DNA from: Opitutales bacterium
Lineage (GTDB): Bacteria; Verrucomicrobiota; Verrucomicrobiia; Opitutales; Oceanipulchritudinaceae
Assembly: GCA_007133065.1 (NCBI GenBank)
Contig: SLNJ01000009.1
Span: 1 to 64,000, forward strand
DNA length: 64,000 nucleotides
Reading direction: 5' to 3'
Positions 474 to 63,845 of the stretch are shown here, piece by piece. The notes under the pieces were generated by a model. That model had not been told where the DNA came from and did not search any database. It worked only from the letters and a program-made list of their open reading frames with translations. A program made the translations under genes and the position numbers. The first letter of the stretch is position 1, and every line of letters begins with the position of its first letter.

Positions 474-479
474 TTGACA
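474..479 (+). promoter_or_regulatory. possible -35 element of the metal-uptake operon
   Basis: TTGACA is a perfect sigma-70 -35 hexamer 68 bases before the porin ATG. No good -10 hexamer occurs at 16-18 bases; the best candidate is a weak TAGATC-like stretch near 498. The element is plausible because it sits just upstream of the 19-bp dyad at 511-529, which would then overlap the start of transcription. Only the -35 match is seen directly. Confidence 0.35.
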
Positions 480-510
480 GGCACCGACTCGTCATCATAG
501 ATCAAGCCGA

Positions 511-529
511 TGAATAATTCGAATATTCA
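511..529. promoter_or_regulatory. 19-bp dyad, candidate metalloregulator operator
   Basis: TGAATA and TATTCA form perfect inverted arms separated by seven bases, in an AT-rich island within GC-rich surroundings, 17 bases before the porin start codon. A dyad of about 19 bp is the usual size of Fur- and DtxR/MntR-type operators, and the downstream genes encode a divalent-metal importer. The sequence does not match one textbook consensus (Fur, Zur, MntR), so which regulator binds, if any, is inference. Confidence 0.45.
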
Positions 530-546
530 AAATAGATAATTGGAGT

Positions 547-1797
547 ATGAGAAACACGCTGATTTCTTTGATTGGTTTGTCGATTCTGCTGTGGGGCGGC
601 TGGGTGCTCGTGCGGGTCGAGCTGCAATCCGCCGGTACGGGGGAGGCGTATGCAGGCGGTTTACGGGAGCGGGGATTCCTGCTTGGGGATCCGGGCGGAG
701 TCCGCTCGAAGGTCTCCGGGAAGGGGGTCCGGGTTGAGGGTCAAGTGACCGCAGACTATTCCCGGGTATTCGACGGAGGGGCGGATCCCGGAGGGTCCGT
801 CTTCCGAACTCTTTTTGAGGCGGGCCTGTCGCTCGAGACTGAGCCTTTGGTTGGTTTGAGGGGCGGCATGTTGTTGATCCGCTTCGTCAATCAGAACGGC
901 CGGGATGGATCGGAATCGGTCGGCGATTTCCAGGTGTATTCGAACATCGACGAAGCGAATTTCACCGCGATCTACGAGTGGTTCTATGAGCAGGAGTTGT
1001 TGGATGGCCGGCTGCGGATCAAGGTTGGAAAAGTGGACGCCAACGAAGAATTTGCCTACGTGGAGCATGGCGGCGAGTTCATTCACTCGTCGCCTGGATT
1101 CTCTCCGACGATCCAGAGTTTCCCGAGTTACCCCGATCCGGCGACGAGCGTGAATGTATTCGTTGTTCCGAGCGACACGATGTACGCTGCGTTTGGATTG
1201 TATGACGGGGCGTTGCAGGAGGGAATTGCAACCGGACGGCGCGGTCCGAGCACGTTCTTTGGGGAGCCGGACGACCTCTTCCTGATCGCTGAAGCCGGGA
1301 TGACGTACGGAGAGGATTGGCGTCCGGGTCGCGTCGGAGCGGGCGTCTGGCGGCACACCGGTACATTCGAGCGTTTTGACGGCGGACGGGAAGGGAGTGC
1401 ATCGGGCTATTATATCGTCTTCGATCAGGTGCTTTACCGGCACAATCCGAGCGACCCGGACGACGCGCGGGAGGTGGGGATGTTTGCTCAGTATGGCTGG
1501 GCCGACCCGCGGGTGAGCGAAGTCGAGCACCATGTTGGAATGGGAGCTCAGTGGACCGGTCCGTTTCCCCGGCGTGACGCTGACGTTGCGGGGGTGATGG
1601 CGAGTTACGTGCACTTTTCCGATAAACCGGGATCGGCCTTCATTGAAGCGGGAGAACTCGCGATTGAGGTCTTCTACAAGGCACAGATCACGCCGTGGTT
1701 TGGGTTCAAACCCGACCTGCAGTTTATTGCGAATCCCGGGGGGCAAGAACTTCCCGATGCGTGGGTGGGAACCCTCCGGGCTGAACTGGCGTTTTGA
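547..1797 (+). CDS. OprB-like carbohydrate-selective-type porin
   Basis: This 416-residue outer-membrane protein starts with a hydrophobic signal segment (about residues 5-24, likely cleaved near 36) and ends in Phe in the motif AELAF, as outer-membrane beta-barrels do. The mature start (LRERG, GVRVEGQ, DGGADPGG) and the segment DGRLRIKVGKVDANEEFA follow the OprB family, whose members are 16-stranded passive channels best known for sugars. Here the gene leads an operon with a divalent-metal ABC importer 103 bases downstream, so metal or metal-chelate passage is a reasonable inference. GGAG lies only one base before the ATG, closer than ideal, so the true start could differ slightly. Family assignment is firm; substrate is not. 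Confidence 0.85.
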   Translation: MRNTLISLIGLSILLWGGWVLVRVELQSAGTGEAYAGGLRERGFLLGDPGGVRSKVSGKGVRVEGQVTADYSRVFDGGADPGGSVFRTLFEAGLSLETEPLVGLRGGMLLIRFVNQNGRDGSESVGDFQVYSNIDEANFTAIYEWFYEQELLDGRLRIKVGKVDANEEFAYVEHGGEFIHSSPGFSPTIQSFPSYPDPATSVNVFVVPSDTMYAAFGLYDGALQEGIATGRRGPSTFFGEPDDLFLIAEAGMTYGEDWRPGRVGAGVWRHTGTFERFDGGREGSASGYYIVFDQVLYRHNPSDPDDAREVGMFAQYGWADPRVSEVEHHVGMGAQWTGPFPRRDADVAGVMASYVHFSDKPGSAFIEAGELAIEVFYKAQITPWFGFKPDLQFIANPGGQELPDAWVGTLRAELAF

Positions 1798-1900: not shown

Positions 1901-2947
1901 ATGAAAATAAGTTACTTTCAAAACAAAGAATCCGGAAGATCCGGATTGGGCATGACCCTGATGCTGCTGGGGGTGGCTGCCTTGATGGTCGCCTGTAGCG
2001 GCGATTCGGGTTCGGGTGCGGGGGAATCCGCGTCCGGCGCTGCTTCGGAGGCGCGGGACTACCCCTATCATGCCGTCGCTACGACCGGCATGGTGGGGGA
2101 CATCGTTCGGAACGTAGTCGGTGACAAGGCCGAGGTTTCGGTCATTATGGGTGCCGGTGTGGACCCGCACCTGTACGCGGCAAGCCGCGACGACGTCGCC
2201 CTGATGATGCGGGCCGACATCATCTTTTATTCCGGCCTGCTTCTGGAGGGCAAGATGACGGATGCTCTGGTGCGCGTTGCCGGGCGCAAACCGGTTCTGG
2301 CGGTGACCGAAGCCATTGATGAGCAATTCCTGCTCGAGCCTGAGGAATACGCCGGGCTGTATGATCCACACGTATGGATGGATCCTCGCTCGTGGAGCCG
2401 GTGCGTGGATGCGGTCGTCAATCGGCTGTCGGAGTTCGATCCCTCGAACGCCGGGCTGTACGAACGGAACGCCGCGCAATACAAACAGCGACTCGACGCG
2501 TTGCACACGTACGGCGAGAAGGTTTTGGGGAGCATCCCGGAGGATAGCCGGGTTATGATCACCTCCCATGATGCGTTCAACTACTTCGGGCGCGCGTTCG
2601 ACTTGGAGGTGCACGGGGTTCAGGGTCTATCGACCGATTCCGAGGCTGGATTGGCCCGGGTGAACGAGCTCGTGGACATGCTCGTCGACAAGCGTATCAA
2701 GGCGGTGTTCGGCGAGACCAGCGTGCCGCAGAAGAGCATCGAGTCGCTGGTCAACGGCGCTCGGTCGCGCGGACACGAAGTCCGTATCGGGGGAGAGCTG
2801 TTTTCCGACGCTATGGGTTCGAAAGGCACCTACGAAGGTACTTATATCGGCATGATCGACCACAATATCACGACCGTAGCCCGGGCTCTTGGCGGTGAAG
2901 CCCCCGCGCGCGGGATGCAGGGCAAGCTGAGCCGGCCCCATGAGTAA
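1901..2947 (+). CDS. TroA/ZnuA-type metal-binding lipoprotein of ABC importer
   Basis: The 348-residue protein captures divalent metal in the periplasm for the ABC importer encoded next. A hydrophobic N-terminus ends in LMVAC, giving a lipid-attached Cys32, followed by a Ser/Gly-rich linker. The four ligand positions of the cluster A-I (ZnuA/TroA/PsaA) family are present: His90 in DPHLY, His157 in DPHVW, His223 in TSHDAF and Asp303 in LFSDAM. Their spacing is almost that of TroA, and the His-His-His-Asp set is the TroA set rather than the Mn-specific set with Glu in third position. Zn and Mn are both possible. There is no long His-rich loop of the ZnuA kind. It overlaps the ATPase gene by 8 bases. 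Confidence 0.92.
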   Translation: MKISYFQNKESGRSGLGMTLMLLGVAALMVACSGDSGSGAGESASGAASEARDYPYHAVATTGMVGDIVRNVVGDKAEVSVIMGAGVDPHLYAASRDDVALMMRADIIFYSGLLLEGKMTDALVRVAGRKPVLAVTEAIDEQFLLEPEEYAGLYDPHVWMDPRSWSRCVDAVVNRLSEFDPSNAGLYERNAAQYKQRLDALHTYGEKVLGSIPEDSRVMITSHDAFNYFGRAFDLEVHGVQGLSTDSEAGLARVNELVDMLVDKRIKAVFGETSVPQKSIESLVNGARSRGHEVRIGGELFSDAMGSKGTYEGTYIGMIDHNITTVARALGGEAPARGMQGKLSRPHE

Positions 2948-3788
2948 CCCAACCGCATTGCAGAACGGACCGCGTCAGAGCGCCGTCTCGCCTGCGCATC
3001 ATCCGGCGGGCAAGGAGCACTCGCCGGACGCCCCCCTGTCGATCCACGACATGACCGTCGCTTATCATCGCAAACCGGTTCTCTGGGACGTTGACCTTGA
3101 CCTTCCCGAGAGGAGTCTGATCGGTGTCATCGGACCGAACGGCGCGGGTAAGAGCACGTTGATCAAGGCCGCCATGGACCTTGTGCCGAAAGCCTCGGGC
3201 CGGGTGCGTGTGTACGGTCTGCCGTATCGCAAGAACCGAAAACGCGTTGCGTATGTACCACAACGGGAGAGCGTTGACTGGGACTTTCCGGTCACCGCGC
3301 TGGACGTCGTGGCTATGGGGCGGTACCGGCGGATCGGATGGTGCGTTCCGGTGACGAAGAAGCATCGCGAAGCGGCCCGGGAAGCGCTCGATCGTGTCGG
3401 GATCGCCGATCTGGCCGATCGACAGATCAGCCAGCTTTCCGGAGGGCAGCAGCAGCGTACGTTCCTTGCCCGCGCACTCGTGCAGGACGCCGATCTGTAT
3501 TTGATGGACGAACCGTTCGCCGCGGTCGACGCCGCGACCGAGAAAGCGATTGTCAAAATCCTCAAGGATCTGAAGGCGGATGGCAAGACGGCTCTGGTCA
3601 TCCATCATGACCTCCAGAGCGTTGAGGACTACTTCGACTATGTGGTTCTGATGAACATGCGGATCATTGCGCACGGTCCGACCAGTGCGGTGTTCACGGA
3701 GGACAACCTCCGGAAGACCTACGGCGGCAAACTCACGCTGCTCGCCGATGCCGCCGAAGCCATGAGGCGGGTGCAGGCGCGATCATGA
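2940..3788 (+). CDS. metal ABC transporter ATP-binding protein (TroB/ZnuC type)
   Basis: This 282-residue cytosolic ATPase powers the importer. The Walker A motif GPNGAGKST is at 65-73, the signature LSGGQ at 166-170, Walker B LYLMDE at 186-191, and the switch His pair at 222-223. The stretch YVPQRESVDWDFPVTALDVV is typical of ATPases of Mn/Zn/Fe(II) uptake systems. An N-terminal extension of about 30 residues (Pro/His/Ala-rich) precedes the domain and is unusual; a later start is not obvious. The ATG lies inside the end of the binding-protein gene and the stop overlaps the first permease by four bases, so the three are translationally coupled. Confidence 0.93.
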   Translation: MSNPTALQNGPRQSAVSPAHHPAGKEHSPDAPLSIHDMTVAYHRKPVLWDVDLDLPERSLIGVIGPNGAGKSTLIKAAMDLVPKASGRVRVYGLPYRKNRKRVAYVPQRESVDWDFPVTALDVVAMGRYRRIGWCVPVTKKHREAAREALDRVGIADLADRQISQLSGGQQQRTFLARALVQDADLYLMDEPFAAVDAATEKAIVKILKDLKADGKTALVIHHDLQSVEDYFDYVVLMNMRIIAHGPTSAVFTEDNLRKTYGGKLTLLADAAEAMRRVQARS

Positions 3789-5239
3789 CGGGTGCGCGAT
3801 TCAGCGCCGTTGCGATTGCGGCGGTTGTTCTGCTGGTCCTCGGGGCGCTTTGGACGAGTGGTTCTCTCCACGCACACGGGCCCGAGATCCGGCCCGAGAG
3901 TGCGGACGGGACGCTTTCCGGAAGCGCGGCCGAGTGGCCCTCGCGTGAGCAATGGGTGCGGGCGCTTAGCCTGCGCGACCACAACACGCGCGTCGTGGTT
4001 CTCGGAGTGACGATGCTCGGTCTGGCCTCCGGCGTGATCGGCAGTTTTACGTTGCTTCGCAAGCGCGCGCTCATGGGCGACGCGCTCAGTCACGCCACGC
4101 TTCCCGGCATCGGCCTGGCATTTCTCGTCGCGACCGCAACCGGAATAACGACAAAATCGCTCCTCCTCCTGCTTGTCGGCGCTGCGGCGACTGGTGTCGT
4201 GGGGGTGGCGGTGCTCCTGTTCCTGCGCCGGTACACCCGTCTGAAGGAGGATGCGTGCCTGGGAGTCGTGCTCAGCGTCTTCTTCGGCGCTGGGATCGCC
4301 GTGCTCGGGGTGATCCAGCAGCTTGGTACCGGGTCGGCCGCCGGCCTGGAAACATTTATCTATGGAAAAGCCGCATCGATGGTACCCGGTGATGTGGTAC
4401 TCATCGGAATTGGCGGGATCCTGGTGATCCTGGTCTGCGGGCTTCTCTTTAAGGAGTTTATGCTGCTCTGCTTCGACCCCGCCTATTCCGCGGTACAGGG
4501 ATGGCCCGTGCTCGGGCTGGACATCGTCATGATGGCTCTGGTGGTGGTTGTTACGGTGATCGGCCTGCAGGCGGTCGGACTCGTGCTGATCATCGCGATG
4601 TTGATCATCCCCGCCGCAGCGGCACGGTTCTGGTTCGACCGCATGCTCCCTATGACGCTCCTTGCCGGAGGGTTGGGGGCCGCCAGCGCGATGGTTGGAG
4701 CCGGGATCAGCGCGGTTTTCGCGAAGCTTCCGTCGGGAGCGATTATTGTTATCGTCACTGCCGTGGTTTTCGCATTCAGCATGTTTTTCGGGCCGGCCCG
4801 GGGGTTGCTCCCCCGCTACGTGCGGCGGCGGATTCTGCAGCGAAGAATCGGCCGCCAGCATCTTCTCCGTGCTGCCTACGAATTGCTGGAATCAAAGGGC
4901 GGCCTCGAGGAGCATACGCCCCGTTGGATCGCATTCGATGAGCTTCTGACCAAGCGCTCCTGGAGCCTGCGTCGTGTGCGCAAGCTGGCCAGAGGCGCGC
5001 AGCGGGCCGGACAGGTCGAGCTGAACGACGGAGGCATTGCGCTCACCGACCTGGGCCGAGCCGATGCCGCCAGAATCGTTCGCAATCACAGGATGTGGGA
5101 GATGTACCTGATAACCTACGCCGACATCGCCCCGAGCCACGTCGACCGTGATGCGGACATGATCGAGCACGTGCTCGACGCGGATATGATTGCAGAGCTT
5201 GAAGGCCTGCTCAGCCGCCCCGTTGCCTCGTGCCGTTGA
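3785..5239 (+). CDS. metal ABC permease with C-terminal DtxR/MntR-like domain
   Basis: Residues 1 to about 340 form an ABC-3 family permease: an extra N-terminal membrane segment with a periplasmic stretch, then seven to eight helices with the family segment ALMGDALSHATLPG and the ATPase-contact region FKEFMLLCFDPAYS. From about 350 to 484 the protein continues as a soluble domain resembling a whole DtxR/MntR repressor: a winged-helix part (YELLESKGG, WSLRRVRKLARGAQRAG, LTDLG), then the metal-binding and dimerisation part with RNHRMWEMYL and MIEHVLD. His in RNHR and the Glu-His of IEH match the MntR ligands His77 and Glu102/His103. Known permeases of about 280 residues lack this part. Metal sensing by the transporter itself is inference. 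Confidence 0.9.
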   Translation: MTGARFSAVAIAAVVLLVLGALWTSGSLHAHGPEIRPESADGTLSGSAAEWPSREQWVRALSLRDHNTRVVVLGVTMLGLASGVIGSFTLLRKRALMGDALSHATLPGIGLAFLVATATGITTKSLLLLLVGAAATGVVGVAVLLFLRRYTRLKEDACLGVVLSVFFGAGIAVLGVIQQLGTGSAAGLETFIYGKAASMVPGDVVLIGIGGILVILVCGLLFKEFMLLCFDPAYSAVQGWPVLGLDIVMMALVVVVTVIGLQAVGLVLIIAMLIIPAAAARFWFDRMLPMTLLAGGLGAASAMVGAGISAVFAKLPSGAIIVIVTAVVFAFSMFFGPARGLLPRYVRRRILQRRIGRQHLLRAAYELLESKGGLEEHTPRWIAFDELLTKRSWSLRRVRKLARGAQRAGQVELNDGGIALTDLGRADAARIVRNHRMWEMYLITYADIAPSHVDRDADMIEHVLDADMIAELEGLLSRPVASCR

Positions 5240-5241
5240 CG

Positions 5242-6582
5242 ATGATCGAATCACTACAGAGCTGGGACTGGTATCTGGATGGCTGGATCGTCGGGGTCGG
5301 CATCCTGTGTGCAACGGCTTGTGCGCTGCTGGGCAACTTCCTGGTTCTCCGGAAGATGAGTATGATGGGCGACGCGATCAGCCACGCCGTGCTGCCCGGG
5401 TTGGCTGTGGCGTTTCTGCTGACCGAGAGCCGAACGAGTGTCCCGATGTTCCTTGGCGCGGCAATCGTAGGGGTGTTGACGGCGCTGTTCACCGAGTGGA
5501 TTCGCGGGTTCGGAAAAGTGGACGAGGGGGCGTCGATGGGCGTGGTCTTCACGACACTGTTCGCGATCGGCCTGGTGTTGATTGTTCGGGCGGCCGATTA
5601 TGTCGATCTCGATCCCGGGTGCGTGCTCTACGGGGCGATGGAGTTCACGCCGCTGGACACCGTGGAGGTTGCCGGCTTCGTTGTGCCCCGGGTTGCGGTG
5701 ACGCTCGGGGTCGTGCTCCTGGTGAACATCGCATTTGTGGCGATCTTCTACAAGGAGCTGAAAATCAGTTCGTTCGACCCGGAGCTCGCGACGACGATGG
5801 GAATCAACGCCGGGCTGATGCACTACCTGCTCATGACCCTGGTGGCGGTGACAGCCGTTGCATCATTTGAAGCGGTGGGGAACATCCTCGTTGTTGCCGT
5901 TCTGATCGTACCGCCGGCCGCCGCGTATATGCTTACCGATCGGCTCTCGATCATGATCGCGTTGAGTCTGGTAATCGCAGCAGTGTCCGCGCTGCTGGGC
6001 CATGTGAGCGCCATCGCGGGTCCGGCGCTGTTCGGTTACGGCAGCGTAGGTACCGCCGGGATGATTGCCGTCGCGGCCGGCTTCCTGTTTGTTCTGGCGG
6101 TGCTCCTGGGACCGCGGCACGGCGTCATCAGCAAGCTTGTTCACCATGTCTCTTTGTCGATGCGGATCGCCGCGGAAGATGTGCTCGCGATGCTCTATCG
6201 CATCGAGGAACTCGCCGTCGGGGAACAGCGATCTGTCGTCCCCGCACATCTCGATGCGGCGATGCAACTGGCAACACCGCGCCGCCGATTGCTTGTCGGC
6301 CACCTCGTCCACCGCGGGCTTGTCGACCGGGAGGGAGGCCGGCTGATACTGACCGATCGAGGCAGGGATCGCGCTCGCAATCTGGTTCGTTCACACCGGT
6401 TGTGGGAGACGTATCTGTTGCGCTACACCAGGCTTCGGCCGGACCACGTTCACTTTTCCGCCGAGCGGTTGGAGCATTCCACGGACCACGAACTCCAGGC
6501 CGCTCTCAACGCGCACACGGACTCGCCTCATATCGACCCGCACGGCCGTCCGATACCGCCCCGGATCTCTGAGAGGGATTGA
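5242..6582 (+). CDS. second metal ABC permease with C-terminal DtxR/MntR-like domain
   Basis: This is the partner permease (446 residues from the ATG two bases after the preceding stop; a GTG at 5230 is an alternative start). Residues 1 to about 300 hold the ABC-3 helices with MSMMGDAISHAVLPG and FYKELKISSFDPELA. Residues from about 305 to the end again look like DtxR/MntR: a winged-helix stretch (EDVLAMLYRIEE, RRRLLVGHLVHRGLV, LTDRG), then RSHRLWETYLLRY, AERLEHSTD, and the closing DPHGRPIP typical of that family. It keeps an Asp at the position of MntR Asp8, which the first permease lacks, so the two soluble domains are not equivalent. The pair probably forms a heterodimeric channel with two sensor-like domains on the cytosolic face. 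Confidence 0.9.
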   Translation: MIESLQSWDWYLDGWIVGVGILCATACALLGNFLVLRKMSMMGDAISHAVLPGLAVAFLLTESRTSVPMFLGAAIVGVLTALFTEWIRGFGKVDEGASMGVVFTTLFAIGLVLIVRAADYVDLDPGCVLYGAMEFTPLDTVEVAGFVVPRVAVTLGVVLLVNIAFVAIFYKELKISSFDPELATTMGINAGLMHYLLMTLVAVTAVASFEAVGNILVVAVLIVPPAAAYMLTDRLSIMIALSLVIAAVSALLGHVSAIAGPALFGYGSVGTAGMIAVAAGFLFVLAVLLGPRHGVISKLVHHVSLSMRIAAEDVLAMLYRIEELAVGEQRSVVPAHLDAAMQLATPRRRLLVGHLVHRGLVDREGGRLILTDRGRDRARNLVRSHRLWETYLLRYTRLRPDHVHFSAERLEHSTDHELQAALNAHTDSPHIDPHGRPIPPRISERD

Positions 6583-11730: not shown

Positions 11731-12119
11731 GATCTTGTGGGTTTGTGGGTTTGTGATCGTTCCTGGCTTGCTTTTCGTCCAGCGCTGCTGTGCATGCCGC
11801 GAACTGCTGCGTCCGGCTCGACATGCAGCGAATCGTCGGTGTATCCAACTTGTATGATGGAGAATGGCCCAAGATATTCCCTCGGATTGCTTAAAACGAT
11901 GCTGTTGCGGGGCGGCTGGCGTCGCTGTTGTTTGATGTCAGCGGAGTGTGGAGGGAATCCGTCCGTCCGGCAGCTTGCTCTGTAGTTCCGTCGCTCTCCG
12001 GCCTCCGTGGCGCCGAAGAAGCCGTTCGCCTTCCGTCCTCAGTCGCGTACCGAACACCGCCGTCCTCCGTTTCGCGGTCTTCTGCCCCCCTGGAAATGCC
12101 GGAGCCGATCCGTTCGCAG
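11731..12119. other. 389-base intergenic region, includes an 8-bp tandem repeat
   Basis: No gene is supported here. At 11735-11755 the plus strand reads TTGTGGGT twice plus a partial third copy, immediately before the start codon of the thioredoxin-like gene and flanked by GATC on both sides. The promoter of the minus-strand thioredoxin/sigma operon should lie in the right-hand part, but no hexamer pair stands out. The remaining 200 bases before the metallohydrolase stop show nothing recognisable. Confidence 0.5.
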
Positions 12120-39791: not shown

Positions 39792-42700
39792 ATGTTAGGC
39801 AGATCGACCCATTCGGCAGCACGGCTCGGGTGCATTTTCGCACTCGCGGGGTTGTTGTTGCCCGTCTCATTCCTCACCGGTGCGGATTTTACGTGGGACG
39901 GTGGGCATCCGGGGCGAAACAGCGATCTCGACCAAAAATTCAACTGGGCGGGGAACGAGGCGCCGCCGGAAGACGGCACCGCGAATATGATCTTCAGTGG
40001 ATCGCAGAAGCTGCAGCCGAACGCGAAAGGAGAATGGAACGTCAACTCGATCCGTTTCAACAACTGGGCCGAGGCGTTCACGCTGATTGGAGACCCGTTT
40101 ACGATCCAGGCCAACAACGTCACGCACGCGATTTCCAACAACAGCGCGTTCCTGCAGACGATCAACAACGATCTGATCCTGGCCAGGAACCAGAGCTGGC
40201 GGGCGAACACCGCGAACCTGCGGTTAAACGGGGCGGTGAATACCGATAGTTTTCAGCTCACCGTGACCGGCGACGAACAGACCGAGATTACCGGTGTGGT
40301 TTCCGGAACCGGCAGCCTCCTGAAATCCGGCTCTGGAAAAGTGATTCTCTCGGGCGCGAACACGTACAGCGGAGGGACCACGGTTTCGAGCGGGCAACTT
40401 CAGGGTACGACCACCAGTCTTCAGGGGAGCATCGCAAACGACGCGTCGCTGATATTTGACCAGAGCACCGACGGCACCTACGGCGACACAATCTCGGGTA
40501 CTGGAACCGTGATCCGGCGCGGGTCGGGAGTGGTGACGTTCTCTGGAAACAGCACCTACACCGGCGAAACCGCGATCGAGGGTGGAACGCTGCGTGTCAA
40601 CGGCGGATCGGCGATTGGCGACAGCTCCCGGGTCGTCCTGTCCAACACCGCCGGAGCTATTTTTGATCTCGCCGGCGGCAGTGAGACCATCGGTTCGCTC
40701 TCTGGCGGCGGCGCCTCGGGCGGGAACGTGACACTCGGATCCGGCACGCTGACGACCGGTGGCGACGGGACGAGCACGACCTACGACGGGGTTATTTCAG
40801 GAACCGACGGGTCGCTGATCTCGGTCGGGGCGGGTACTCTGACCCTGACCGGAGCCAACACGTACAGCGGCGGCACGATGGTTTCCGCGGGCGGACTGCG
40901 GGGGACGACCACCAGCCTGCAGGGGAGCATCGCGAACAACGCCTCCCTGATTTTCGACCAAAGCAGCGACGGCACCTATTCCGGGTCGCTGTCCGGCTCC
41001 GGAACGGTAACCCGCCGCGGCAGCGGCGTTGTCACATTCTCGGGTGGTAACATTCACACCGGCGACACGATCATTGAGAGCGGGACGCTTCGCGTCAGCG
41101 GCGGTTCAGCGATCGGAGACAGCTCGCGGGTGATCCTCTCGAACGCTTCCGGAGCGATGTTTGACCTCGACGGGAGCAGCGAAACCATCGGCTCGCTCTC
41201 CGGTGGCGGTAGTGCCGGGGGCGATGTGACACTCGGAGCCGGCACGCTGACGGTCGGTTCGGATCATACCGACAGCACCTACGGAGGCATCATCTCGGGC
41301 ACCGGAGCCCTGGTTAAAACGGGCGGCGGCACGCTGACGGTGACCGGCGCGCATACGTACAGCGGCGGCACGACGGTTTCGGGCGGTGAACTCCAGGGGA
41401 CTACAACCAGCCTTCAGCAGGCGATCACCAACAACGCGATCGTCTCATTCGACCAGTCCTTCGCCGGCACCTACGCGGGGAGTATCACCGGTTCGGGTGA
41501 TTTGATCAAGCGTGGTTCGGGAACGGTGACGCTGGCGGGGAACGTGAATCTCAGCGGCGGCACGGGAGTCGGGATCAACCGTGGGAGCATCCTCCTCGGC
41601 TCCGACAACGTCATAAGCAGCAGCACAAACCTGTTCGTCGGCGACGGCGCCAGCCTGAATATGGACGGGAAATCGGTTCGGATCAACGAACTGAGCTTCG
41701 ACAATGGGATTGTTGATTTCGGGGCCGGCGACAACTTTTTTCTTTTCAACGACGCCGGAACACATGACGGCGTGTTGACGATGCAGAATTGGCAGGAGGC
41801 GTGGGCGGACAACCTGAACGGAGGGATTGCATTTGAATCCGGGGCTGGAAACGTCGGTTCCGATCTGCTGAACAGCATCTATTTCTCCGGACTCGGGTCC
41901 GGGGTGCTTGGCGATACGAACCAGAGCATCAGCGGCTATTCGGACAGCTGGAATTTCATTGTGGCCAACACGGAGCCCTTCTTCACATGGGACGGCGGCG
42001 GGAATAATAACAATTGGAGCACGGACGCGAACTGGGAAGGCGGTGTCGCGCCACCTTCCGACGACGCAACCACGCGCGTTGCATTTGACGGTGACCAACG
42101 CACGACCCCGTCCTTAAACGAGGATTTCACGATCAACGCACTGCGTTTCAACGAGAGTGCGGATGCGTTCACCCTGGATGCTGCCGGCAACCGCGAACTT
42201 ACCATGGACGGGCCGGTCCCGAGCATTATCCAGATGTCTCCGAACGACCAGGTGATCAACCTCGGTATCATCATGGGCGGTACCACGGTGATCGACACGC
42301 TCGGGGGAGGGACGCTGACCGTCAACGGGGTTGTTTCCGGCGCCGGCGGAATCAGCAAAGTGGGCGAGCACACATTGATTGTGACCGGCGACAACACCTA
42401 CTCCGGGCATACGACCGTCGCCGAGGGGGTTCTCAACATTCGTCACGGCAACGCGCTCGGCGCTGTCACCGCCGGCACCTCGGTCGAAGGGGGAGCACGA
42501 TTGGAACTTCAGGACGGAATTGCCGTGGGCGACGAAGCGCTCAACCTCGAAGGAACGCTACGCAACGTTTCCGGCTCGAACATCTACGGCGGTGCCATCG
42601 CCGGAGATGGGCTGATCGACGTGCAATCGGGGACGCTCACCCTGACAGGTTCCTCGGACAACACGTTCATCGGTGACATCTCGATCGCCGAGGGCATGCT

Positions 42701-45200
42701 GCAGCTCAACAAGAGCGGCGTCGCGCTCGCCGTGTCCGGCGCCGTTTCCGTGGGAACCGGCACCGGGACCAGCACATTGAGTCTCCTCCGCCCGAATCAG
42801 ATTGCGGAAGGGTCGGCGATCACCCTGCATGCGGCGGGATCACCGGTTTTTAACTTCAACGATAACAACGAGCGGATCGGCGCGCTCATCAGTGACAACG
42901 CAGCGGCTCAGGTGAACCTCGGTTCCGCCACGTTGACCGTCGGAGACGGATCCGATCGCACCTACGCAGGCGTCATCTCCGGGTCCGGCGAGCTTGTGAA
43001 AGAGGGCGGCGGTAACTGGACCCTCACCGGCGACAGCGATTACACCGGACACACAACCGTCGCCGATGGAGCCCTACGGATCCGCCACAGCAACGCCCTC
43101 GGAGCGGCCGGCGGTGGTGCGACGGTATCGGGCGACGCCCGTTTGGAGATGAGCGACGGCATCGCCGTCGGCGACGAACCCCTGTCGCTCTCCGGAACGC
43201 TGCGGAATGTATCCGACTCGAACCAATGGGGCGGGGCGATTTCCGGAAACGGGACGATCGATGTGGCGTCCGGTTCTTTGACGCTTTCGGGCGGTTCCGC
43301 GAACACATTTTCCGGGTCCACGCAAATAGGCGCCGGGGCCACCCTCGAGCTGAACAAGAGCGGAGGCGTTCAGGCTCTCGGCGGAGCGATCACGATCGGT
43401 GACGGTTCCGGAACGAGTACCGTGCGTTTGCAGGCTGCAGACCAGATTGCCAACGCCGCCGCACTCACGCTTTCGGAAGGCGGTACGCCGCTGTTCGACC
43501 TGAACAACCACAACGAGCGTATCGGTTCGTTGAGCAGCGCGAACGCCGACGCTTCGGTGACGCTCGGCAGCGGAACGCTGACGGTCGGGGACGGGAACAG
43601 CACTGCGTTCGACGGCGTGATCTCAGGGACCGGTGGATTCACCAAGACCGGGAGCGGCGCCCTGACGTTGAATAATCAGAACAGTTTCACCGGGACAACC
43701 ACCGTGAACCAGGGAACGCTCAGTCTCGGTGTCACCGACGCTCTGAGCAGCTCGAGCAACCTGCATCTGGCTGGGGATTCGGCGCTGAGCCTCGGCGGAA
43801 CGTCCTCATTGCGGGTTAACCAATTCAGCTTTGGGGATTCGACTCTCGAATTCGGTGCGACCGACGCGGACCTCTCGTTCCTCTTCGAGACCGACGGCGC
43901 AGCGAACGGCACGTTCCGGATTCGGGACTGGACCTTCGACGGATCCAACGCCATTGGCGTCAAGGTTGATTCCGTCGACCAGGACTTCCTCAACAACATG
44001 TTCTTTACCGGAATCGGTGTCGGCATCGGGGCGAATATCGCCGAGACCGCAACCACGGTTTCCGGGTACGGCGACTTTTTCCTGATCACCCCGATCGAGA
44101 GTTTTGTTTGGAGCGGCGGGACGAGTCCCCAGGGCGGAGGTCAGTCGAGTACCGTCAACTGGAGCGAGGATTCGAACTGGGAGGGCGGCGTCGGCCCCGG
44201 GACGGGAATGGTTCGACAGGCGATTATCATGGCCGGTTCGTCGAAAACCGAGAACAACATGGACAACGCGTACCGGACGAACAGCCTGGTCTTCCGCGAC
44301 TCGGCGTTCACGATCAACAGCTCCACCCTTGATACGATCACCATCGGCGGAGGCGGGGTGCTGAACGAGGCGGAGGATCGTGATCAGACGATAAACGTGG
44401 CGGTGACGCTCAGCGACAGTCAGATTTGGAATGCCCAGGAGGGAAATATCACCGCTTCGAACACCGTCGACCTGCAGAATTACCATCTCACGCTCGACGG
44501 GGAGAACGATTTCACGTTCAGTGGGACGATCGACGAATCGGGAACCGGCACTCCCGGCCGCGTCACCCAGACCGGATCCGGCACCACCACGCTCAGCGGT
44601 TCCGAGGCCAACACCTACACCGGTCCGACCGTGATCGAGAACGGCGTTTTCCGGTTGGAGAAGGATGCAAACGTCACGGCGGTTGCCGGAAATGTCACGG
44701 TCAACACCGGCGGCACCCTCCTGCTCGCCTCGACCGAACAAATTGTCGATACAGCGAATATCACGCTCGGAGGCGGAACGATTCAGATCGGCGGCAATAT
44801 CACCGAGACGATGAACAATCTGACCCTCACCGCCGATTCCGTGATCGATTTCGGGGGGGGCGATGGAATTTTGGAGTTCAACGATTTCATCTTTTCCGAC
44901 GGGACCGACGACTACACCCTGACCGTGCGCAATTGGACCGGCAACATCGGTGTGAACGGTGGAGGCGGCCCCGATCAGCTCGTCTTCGGAACCGAACTGA
45001 CCGAAAACCAGCTTGCCCAGATCCGGTTCGAAGGATACGACCCGAGTATCCAGCTCGACGACCTGGAGGTGGTTCCGATTCCCGAGCCGGGTGCGGTTGC
45101 CGCCGGAGTCGGATTGCTTGGGTTGCTCGGATGGCGTGAACGCCGGCGCTTGCGGGCTCTTCTGGGCGATAGAGTCCCATTCTTGAGCAGGCAGGAGTAG
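39792..45200 (+). CDS. giant autotransporter-repeat surface protein with PEP-CTERM anchor
   Basis: The 1802-residue protein has a signal peptide (LGCIFALAGLLLPVSFLTGA), then three modules each opened by a Trp-rich motif: FTWDGG near residue 32, FFTWDGGG near 731 and FVWSGG near 1438, each followed by W(E/A)GG and PxxxDG-like stretches. Between them are many autotransporter-associated beta-strand repeats (GTLTLTGANTYSGGT type, TIGR02601). The C-terminus is PIPEPGAVAAGVGLLGLLGW with RERRR, a PEP-CTERM sorting signal (exosortase substrate), followed by about 20 more residues, longer than usual. There is no C-terminal autotransporter barrel. Function: probably an extracellular or surface adhesin/scaffold; no enzyme motif is seen. 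Confidence 0.9.
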   Translation: MLGRSTHSAARLGCIFALAGLLLPVSFLTGADFTWDGGHPGRNSDLDQKFNWAGNEAPPEDGTANMIFSGSQKLQPNAKGEWNVNSIRFNNWAEAFTLIGDPFTIQANNVTHAISNNSAFLQTINNDLILARNQSWRANTANLRLNGAVNTDSFQLTVTGDEQTEITGVVSGTGSLLKSGSGKVILSGANTYSGGTTVSSGQLQGTTTSLQGSIANDASLIFDQSTDGTYGDTISGTGTVIRRGSGVVTFSGNSTYTGETAIEGGTLRVNGGSAIGDSSRVVLSNTAGAIFDLAGGSETIGSLSGGGASGGNVTLGSGTLTTGGDGTSTTYDGVISGTDGSLISVGAGTLTLTGANTYSGGTMVSAGGLRGTTTSLQGSIANNASLIFDQSSDGTYSGSLSGSGTVTRRGSGVVTFSGGNIHTGDTIIESGTLRVSGGSAIGDSSRVILSNASGAMFDLDGSSETIGSLSGGGSAGGDVTLGAGTLTVGSDHTDSTYGGIISGTGALVKTGGGTLTVTGAHTYSGGTTVSGGELQGTTTSLQQAITNNAIVSFDQSFAGTYAGSITGSGDLIKRGSGTVTLAGNVNLSGGTGVGINRGSILLGSDNVISSSTNLFVGDGASLNMDGKSVRINELSFDNGIVDFGAGDNFFLFNDAGTHDGVLTMQNWQEAWADNLNGGIAFESGAGNVGSDLLNSIYFSGLGSGVLGDTNQSISGYSDSWNFIVANTEPFFTWDGGGNNNNWSTDANWEGGVAPPSDDATTRVAFDGDQRTTPSLNEDFTINALRFNESADAFTLDAAGNRELTMDGPVPSIIQMSPNDQVINLGIIMGGTTVIDTLGGGTLTVNGVVSGAGGISKVGEHTLIVTGDNTYSGHTTVAEGVLNIRHGNALGAVTAGTSVEGGARLELQDGIAVGDEALNLEGTLRNVSGSNIYGGAIAGDGLIDVQSGTLTLTGSSDNTFIGDISIAEGMLQLNKSGVALAVSGAVSVGTGTGTSTLSLLRPNQIAEGSAITLHAAGSPVFNFNDNNERIGALISDNAAAQVNLGSATLTVGDGSDRTYAGVISGSGELVKEGGGNWTLTGDSDYTGHTTVADGALRIRHSNALGAAGGGATVSGDARLEMSDGIAVGDEPLSLSGTLRNVSDSNQWGGAISGNGTIDVASGSLTLSGGSANTFSGSTQIGAGATLELNKSGGVQALGGAITIGDGSGTSTVRLQAADQIANAAALTLSEGGTPLFDLNNHNERIGSLSSANADASVTLGSGTLTVGDGNSTAFDGVISGTGGFTKTGSGALTLNNQNSFTGTTTVNQGTLSLGVTDALSSSSNLHLAGDSALSLGGTSSLRVNQFSFGDSTLEFGATDADLSFLFETDGAANGTFRIRDWTFDGSNAIGVKVDSVDQDFLNNMFFTGIGVGIGANIAETATTVSGYGDFFLITPIESFVWSGGTSPQGGGQSSTVNWSEDSNWEGGVGPGTGMVRQAIIMAGSSKTENNMDNAYRTNSLVFRDSAFTINSSTLDTITIGGGGVLNEAEDRDQTINVAVTLSDSQIWNAQEGNITASNTVDLQNYHLTLDGENDFTFSGTIDESGTGTPGRVTQTGSGTTTLSGSEANTYTGPTVIENGVFRLEKDANVTAVAGNVTVNTGGTLLLASTEQIVDTANITLGGGTIQIGGNITETMNNLTLTADSVIDFGGGDGILEFNDFIFSDGTDDYTLTVRNWTGNIGVNGGGGPDQLVFGTELTENQLAQIRFEGYDPSIQLDDLEVVPIPEPGAVAAGVGLLGLLGWRERRRLRALLGDRVPFLSRQE
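40306..41530 (+). repeat. three tandem ~166-residue duplications in the surface protein
   Basis: Corresponding segments (GTTTSLQGSIAN region) recur at 40407, 40905 and 41400, i.e. periods of 498 and 495 bases. The first two copies are near-identical in protein sequence over the whole unit (GTTTSL, ASLIFDQS.DGTY, GSAIGDSSRV, SETIGSLSGGG), while the third diverges after about 60 residues. The period is a multiple of three, so the frame is kept. This points to repeated intragenic duplication. Confidence 0.8.
42405..43688 (+). repeat. two tandem ~214-residue duplications in the surface protein
   Basis: Starting at 42405 and again at 43047 (642 bases apart) the encoded protein repeats the order GHTTVA, RHxNALGA, DGIAVGDE, GTLRNVS, GGAI, NKSG, NNERIG and TLTVGDG. 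Identity is lower than between the 166-residue units upstream, so this duplication looks older. It lies in the second module of the protein. Confidence 0.75.
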
Positions 45201-62741: not shown

Positions 62742-63395
62742 TCACGGTCTGACATTAAAGGGCTGACGCACACGTGTGCGCACAGCCTCCCCGTCTACTC
62801 TGCCGGGCTCGAAACGCCAACGCTCGACGGCGCGAACAACATACTCGTCGAGTGCCGGGGCGTCCGAGCGCTCCACGCGCGGCCGAAGCACGCGGCCCTG
62901 TTCGTCGACGATGAACACGAGCGAGAACGTCACGGCCCGGCGCGGCCGCTGGTGCGGCGGAATGTCCGGGCCGACCTGGTAGATCGGTGTCGGCGGCTCG
63001 TCGAGATCCTCGACCTCGAAGATGATGTCGCGCAGGCTGCCACCGACGTCGAACGAGGGAAGCGTATACCCGGTCCCCGCCCCGTCTCCGATGTCGGTGG
63101 AGAGTGCGAGCTCGAGCATGTCAAGCGGCGGCGGTTCCCGTTGTTCCTCCATATCCTCAATATCTTCCCGTTGCTCTTCCTCCTCGGGTGGCGGCGGTTC
63201 GGGTGGAGGAGGGGGCGGCGGTTGGAGCTCCACCGAATCGATGTCGATGATGGTGCGCTCGGCGATGGAGGTGATGAACTGTGCGAACGGCAACAGCAGA
63301 AAGAGTAACGCGCTGATCGCGATCGCCAGACCGAATGCAGACCCAGGATTCCCTCCGAGTTTTGGAGGAGATTTCTGGTTTTGTGGCTTTTTCAT
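62742..63395 (-). CDS. TonB-family energy transducer
   Basis: The 217-residue protein has a membrane segment near residues 21-42 (FGLAIAISALLFLLLPFAQF), a Pro/Glu-rich spacer (PPPPPPPEPPPPEEEE), and a C-terminal TonB domain with RAVTFSLVFIVDEQGRV, VVRAVERWRFEPGRVDG and VRTRVRQPF. It couples the proton motive force from ExbB/ExbD to outer-membrane receptors. It follows ExbD by 42 bases. The C-terminus fits the shorter TonB-like type that pairs with dedicated ExbBD sets. Confidence 0.88.
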   Translation of the reverse strand: MKKPQNQKSPPKLGGNPGSAFGLAIAISALLFLLLPFAQFITSIAERTIIDIDSVELQPPPPPPPEPPPPEEEEQREDIEDMEEQREPPPLDMLELALSTDIGDGAGTGYTLPSFDVGGSLRDIIFEVEDLDEPPTPIYQVGPDIPPHQRPRRAVTFSLVFIVDEQGRVLRPRVERSDAPALDEYVVRAVERWRFEPGRVDGEAVRTRVRQPFNVRP

Positions 63396-63437
63396 GGTTC
63401 CCGGGAGCGGTAAAGATTTTGAGATTTCAAATTTGGG

Positions 63438-63845
63438 TTATGGTGTCTCCGTAGATATACTGACACGCTTTGCGCCCCCGAGTTTCGCTTCATCAATGGC
63501 CCGAACGACCACTCCCGCTGAAGATCCGCGGTCCACCTGGAGGATGACCGGCATATCGTCGCCTTCCAGAAGGCGGGTTACAACAGCCCGGATTCCTCCG
63601 ATCCCGATATTGTCGCCGCCATAGACGATGTTGTCTGCCGCCGTGACCGCGATCAGAATGCTGTTGCGTTCGAGGTCAAATGCGCTGACGGCCCGTTCGC
63701 GTTCGACATCGACGCCCGGTTCCTCGACGAAGACCGTGGTGACGATGAAGAAGATCAACAGAATAAAGACCATGTCGATCAACGGGGAGATGTTGATCTC
63801 GCTGATATCGCGATCGTCGGATTGGAGAGTGCCTCGTTTGCTCAT
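63438..63845 (-). CDS. ExbD/TolR-family biopolymer transporter
   Basis: The 135-residue protein has a short cytosolic part, then one membrane helix containing the proton-carrying Asp in INISPLIDMVFILLIFF, and a periplasmic domain (ILIAVTAADNIVYGG, VILQVDRGSSAGVVVRAIDE). It forms the motor with ExbB. Its start overlaps the ExbB stop by three to four bases (ATGA), so the two are coupled. Length is normal. Confidence 0.93.
   Translation of the reverse strand: MSKRGTLQSDDRDISEINISPLIDMVFILLIFFIVTTVFVEEPGVDVERERAVSAFDLERNSILIAVTAADNIVYGGDNIGIGGIRAVVTRLLEGDDMPVILQVDRGSSAGVVVRAIDEAKLGGAKRVSISTETP

Follow-up and report, generated by a model that had tools for sequence, protein, structure and literature searches.

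The DNA analysed here, a 64-kb window that forms the start of contig C95, opens with a metal-uptake operon headed by a porin gene (Table 1), and the question raised by this locus is through which site, and by which regulator, the operon is switched. The initial annotation had pointed to a perfect TGAATA-N7-TATTCA dyad as the operator, possibly read by DtxR-like domains attached to the two permeases, and that dyad is indeed present (TGAATAATTCGAATATTCA, positions 511-529), downstream of the TTGACA at 474-479 and ahead of the porin ATG at 547, as described. The AT-rich pocket that separates TTGACA from the porin start does seem to harbour an operator of the metal-uptake operon, but in a different register: the real operator is likely an overlapping 18-bp box of a known kind at 516-533, whose centre is 4.5 bp downstream of that of the dyad. 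On sequence grounds, we consider it very probable that this box serves the stand-alone MntR/TroR-like repressor of the same genome as its operator for the metal-uptake operon.

Table 1. Sequence features of the metal-uptake operon and its upstream region (positions in the window)
Feature	Position	Strand	Remarks
TTGACA hexamer, possible -35	474..479	+	without good -10 at usual spacing
TCGTCA-18-AATAAT promoter pair	489..518	+	9/12; shuffles average 0.3
Candidate TroR/MntR-type operator AATTCGAATATTCAAAAT	516..533	.	matrix score and Treponema operator match
OprB-family porin, first gene of the operon	547..1797	+	ATG at 547
ZnuA/TroA-type metal-binding protein	1901..2947	+	
ABC transporter ATPase	2940..3788	+	
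ABC-3 permease with C-terminal Fe_dep_repr_C domain	3785..5239	+	fused part tested 4817-5236
ABC-3 permease with C-terminal Fe_dep_repr_C domain	5230..6582	+	fused part tested 6130-6579

The box was recognized by its conservation before related operons. Among 55 genomes searched, none of them of the same genus, 35 (the genome of the window included) match the metal-binding protein, and 4 to 11 kb were fetched around the match, giving 25 loci from 24 other genomes for scanning, with the fetched locus L070 and weaker binding-protein matches left aside. At 18 of these 25 loci, an exact TTTGA-N4-TCAAA core (type A) lies in the 450 bp that precede the binding-protein match, and three further loci carry an exact TGTAGC-N4-GCTACA box (type B) in the same stretch. 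A fourth type-B locus, L041, has its exact box before a porin gene that heads the operon, as in the window. Neither type was found in the searched stretch of L042, L046 and L064, though an exact type-A box lies ca. 770 bp upstream in L042. We extended the comparison to 80 named loci, of which the 74 with at least 250 bp of upstream sequence include six with exact type A and three with exact type B (nine with type A at up to one mismatch and 11 with type B at up to two); 1480 composition shuffles held no exact copy of either. The other named loci among the 74, many of them titled as alphaproteobacteria, have neither box. At L043, L044 and L045, from three genomes of one genus, the type-A box is kept at the binding-protein gene, but no ATPase or permease relative turned up in the 10 to 11 kb fetched. 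Among the titles and abstract openings found by searching an open-licence library, none dealt with a type-A box in Verrucomicrobiota or Planctomycetota.

The conserved box has the 18-bp consensus A(T/C)TTTGA-N4-TCAAAAT, from which the box of the window departs by an A at 517 and a C at 520, leaving one mismatch in its core (518-531). With a matrix built from 24 foreign sites, all with an exact core, positions 516-533 are the top match of the whole window at 21.1 bits, a score expected by chance in the intergenic region with P 0.0014, yet they score below every one of the 24 training sites (24.8 to 36.1 bits), which had been picked for an exact core. The initial annotation had found no consensus to match, whereas the box at 516-533 does correspond to published TroR operators of Treponema: the operators of T. 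denticola (ATTTTGATATATCAAAAT) and T. pallidum (ACTTTGATGCATCAAAAT), contained in oligonucleotides of PMC2628430, have a core identical to type A, which makes type A a TroR-type box, and the box of the window agrees with either operator at 12 of 14 positions (P 0.001). The 18 bp of these operators were placed by the mutated operator of that study and the 15/18 identity that it gives. As in the Treponema tro systems described there, the box precedes a metal operon for a substrate-binding protein, an ATPase and two permeases, and the regulator is a long member of the DtxR family, which in T. denticola carries an SH3-like domain (PMC2628430). The window differs from these systems in the two departures of its box, in the porin at the start of the operon, in a regulator gene located outside the operon, and in the DtxR-like domains fused to both permeases. 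For Deinococcus DR2539 and P. gingivalis MntR, passages in the papers on them gave no box sequence.

Apart from the two fused permeases, the 94% complete assembly contains a single detected gene of the DtxR family, a presumably cognate long regulator of 218 aa (C95:88432-89085, minus strand) that lies outside the window, ca. 88 kb from the box on the same contig. It comprises a winged helix (PF01325), a metal-binding and dimerisation domain (PF02742) and a FeoA domain (PF04023); its best NCBIfam model is NF047407, an MntR, below the model cut-off, and among solved structures its best relative is 5zr4. Across relatives, the type of operator goes with the class of the stand-alone regulator. A long regulator is present in all 18 type-A genomes (E 1.1e-56 or better), and in the four type-B genomes nothing matches it comparably (best E 1.3e-6) and a short E. 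coli-like MntR is present instead (E 5.8e-27 or better, the G043 protein being the query itself), so that class and type agree in all 22 genomes having an operator. The same holds for the 32 stand-alone regulators in the fetched loci: type A accompanies 14 of the 19 long ones (own included) and no short one, type B accompanies seven of the 13 short ones and no long one, and the loci of five long and six short regulators lack the respective box, giving agreement in 21 of 21 regulator loci that have an operator. The odds of such agreement, 1 in 7315 for genomes and 1 in 116280 for loci, are only indicative because the two sets overlap and the relatives are not independent. The protein of short-regulator locus L048 matches NF008273 above its cut-off; a size filter kept L116, a regulator-like match within a longer open frame that is accompanied by type B with one mismatch, out of the 32.

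Type B, which we take to resemble the E. coli MntR box, stands at the corresponding site of this operon in four relatives, but it differs in sequence and in its other, shorter class of regulator, and it was not found before the operon of the window. One genome, G006, has both regulators, with type A before the transporter operon and type B before a ZnuD-like receptor that lies beside the short MntR, each regulator adjoining its own operator and target gene (L249 and L056). An operator type that is exchanged along with the regulator class at one operon, with both pairs present in a single genome, seems well suited to the study of how metal repressors change their DNA specificity.

Further boxes in the assembly point in the same direction. 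Forty genome sites deviate from the core at no more than one position (the reversed control pattern gives 26), and the three of these 40 that score best with the matrix precede a ZnuD-like TonB receptor, the porin operon and the stand-alone regulator. The receptor gene (L245; G000:C66:12001-13524, minus strand, cut at 12001) has the best type-A box of the genome directly upstream and matches the ZnuD model NF038289 (E 1.4e-78, below the cut-off for this part-length frame) and structure 4rdr (E 5.8e-48). Among the ZnuD-like orthologues of at least 50% identity that were scanned, five of six (own included, with G013, G001, G009 and G004) have an exact type-A box, and the sixth, beside the short MntR of G006, has an exact type-B box. 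The 19 loci scanned, with the 51% fragment L270 left out, also include 13 TonB receptors below 50% identity; none of these has an exact type-A box, and L252 has one with a single mismatch. At the regulator gene, TTTGATTGACCAAA lies 30 bp before the ATG with one mismatch, in a stretch also spanned by a 944-nt open frame. We rejected type-A autoregulation as a general rule, since 13 of 19 foreign regulator loci have no type-A box at up to one mismatch; five have an exact one, each beside a transporter operon, and L178 has one with a single mismatch (at L168 and L176, the flank is cut and the scanned stretch misplaced). Two other sites with an exact core, one upstream of a secreted-looking CHRD/laminin-G protein (C111:100327) and one within an open frame (C21:142), were judged to be chance. 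Shared by the regulator's own gene, the ZnuD-like receptor and the operon for the porin and ABC importer, the box predicts a small metal-uptake regulon.

The most likely arrangement is an ordinary switch in which the stand-alone repressor shuts the metal-uptake genes when metal is plentiful. A metal-loaded repressor dimer, probably with Mn(II) as the signal as judged from its TroR and MntR relatives, would bind the box, which lies between the promoter and the start of the porin gene, and thereby block either the promoter or the first transcribed bases of the operon from porin to second permease; when metal is short, it would leave the box and uptake would resume. The promoter itself is uncertain, since no good -10 accompanies the TTGACA at 474, and the sole consensus promoter pair found, TCGTCA-18-AATAAT, has a -10 (513-518) that overlaps the box. 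The putative operator is moved to 18 bp that can be tested, with the regulator most likely to bind them named.

The alternative closest to the initial annotation takes the 19-bp dyad as the actual operator, with Fur or some other regulator binding it, and a perfect dyad near a start codon in a genome with four Fur-family matches does invite it. Conservation, the criterion set by the initial annotation, speaks against it: in 25 related upstream regions, the exact dyad was found nowhere and L061 alone has it with one mismatch, so that the conservation expected of an operator before orthologous operons is lacking for the dyad but evident for the overlapping box. The proposed genome-wide search for the dyad fared no better, with one exact copy in the 3.68-Mb assembly, at 511-529, and one second site at up to one mismatch (40237-40255) within an 1802-aa open frame, and we rejected the dyad as a genome-wide motif on these grounds. 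(This open frame, 39792-45200, has autotransporter-like repeats and a C-terminal part reminiscent, by eye, of a PEP-CTERM anchor.) Such dyads also arise readily: perfect 6-bp arms with spacers of 3 to 10 occur 213 times in the window, and 39% of 5000 Markov sequences matched to 330-546 contain at least one (18% for 490-546). At 480-546, the consensuses for Zur, PerR, Fur (GATAATGATAATCATTATC; 10/19, P 0.85), DtxR/IdeR (TTAGGTTAGGCTAACCTAA; 9/19, P 0.80) and E. coli-type MntR (AACATAGC-N4-GCTATGTT; 8/16, P 0.83) all match at chance level (P 0.43 to 0.86). We therefore regard the dyad as a highly improbable operator, probably placed about 5 bases out of register with the one that it overlaps. 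The ease with which AT-rich pockets form dyads, the imperfect box of the window and the 26 sites of the reversed pattern could suggest that both elements are chance and the operon is regulated in some other way. This reading is the least probable of all, as the matrix score is rare for the intergenic region and falls at the place where relatives carry the box, and as the genome encodes the fitting regulator and has metal genes preceded by two further boxes of high score. An RNA element found no favour either, as Rfam at gathering threshold yields tRNA only; separately, the minus strand of positions ca. 30-81 reads by eye like the 5' part of a tRNA gene, and ARAGORN and Rfam list no tRNA at 1-81.

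A somewhat less improbable alternative is a role of the permease-fused DtxR-like domains as readers of the site, perhaps cleaved in the manner of YtgC/YtgR, alone or together with the stand-alone regulator. In Chlamydia, YtgR is such a fused domain of an ABC-3 permease in a metal operon that is released by cleavage and represses its own operon (PMC5599777, PMC6504234), and both permeases of the window similarly carry PF02742 at their C-termini, with the profile of the stand-alone regulators aligning over part of their helix-turn-helix region. Unlike the chlamydial case as published there, the genome of the window has a separate regulator, and the helix-turn-helix of its fused domains is poorly conserved. 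Where loci hold the long regulator, their stand-alone regulators (n=19) reach a mean pairwise identity of 0.45 in the helix-turn-helix and 0.61 in the dimer region; the first fused group (n=15) reaches 0.23 and 0.62, and the second (n=14) 0.18 and 0.47. These groups were set by similarity to the two domains of the window, with some assignments uncertain, and do not include YtgR itself. Neither domain of the window gives a PF01325 match at E up to 1, and fused permeases occur alongside type A and type B alike, whereas operator type changes with the stand-alone regulator. The suggestion that permease-attached domains read the site thus finds little favour: their poorly conserved helix-turn-helix makes them unlikely readers of the box, and we hold this reading to be improbable, although YtgR is a published counter-example.

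The dimer half of the fused domains is conserved, and its consensus retains a His/Glu/Asp-rich stretch that, going by DtxR and MntR structures, is presumably the metal site; together with the unconserved helix-turn-helix, this makes DNA binding unlikely and a role in metal sensing plausible. One tentative possibility, which we would not yet favour, is that the fused domains gave up DNA binding and work as cytosolic metal sensors built into the transporter, gating it directly by feedback inhibition. There would then be two metal checks, one on transcription by the stand-alone repressor at 516-533 and one on transport by the fused domains, and among such fusions chlamydial YtgR would represent an exception and not the general pattern. 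The role of these domains is to us a more interesting question than the operator, and their conserved sensor half next to an unconserved DNA-binding half invites a test of direct gating.

At the far end of the window, the second-best type-A box (63416-63433, ATTTTGAGATTTCAAATT, 18.3 bits) sits in a gap of 42 bp that separates two minus-strand genes, one ExbD-like (63438-63845) and one TonB-like (62742-63395), where it may be chance or may mark a metal-controlled internal promoter for tonB.
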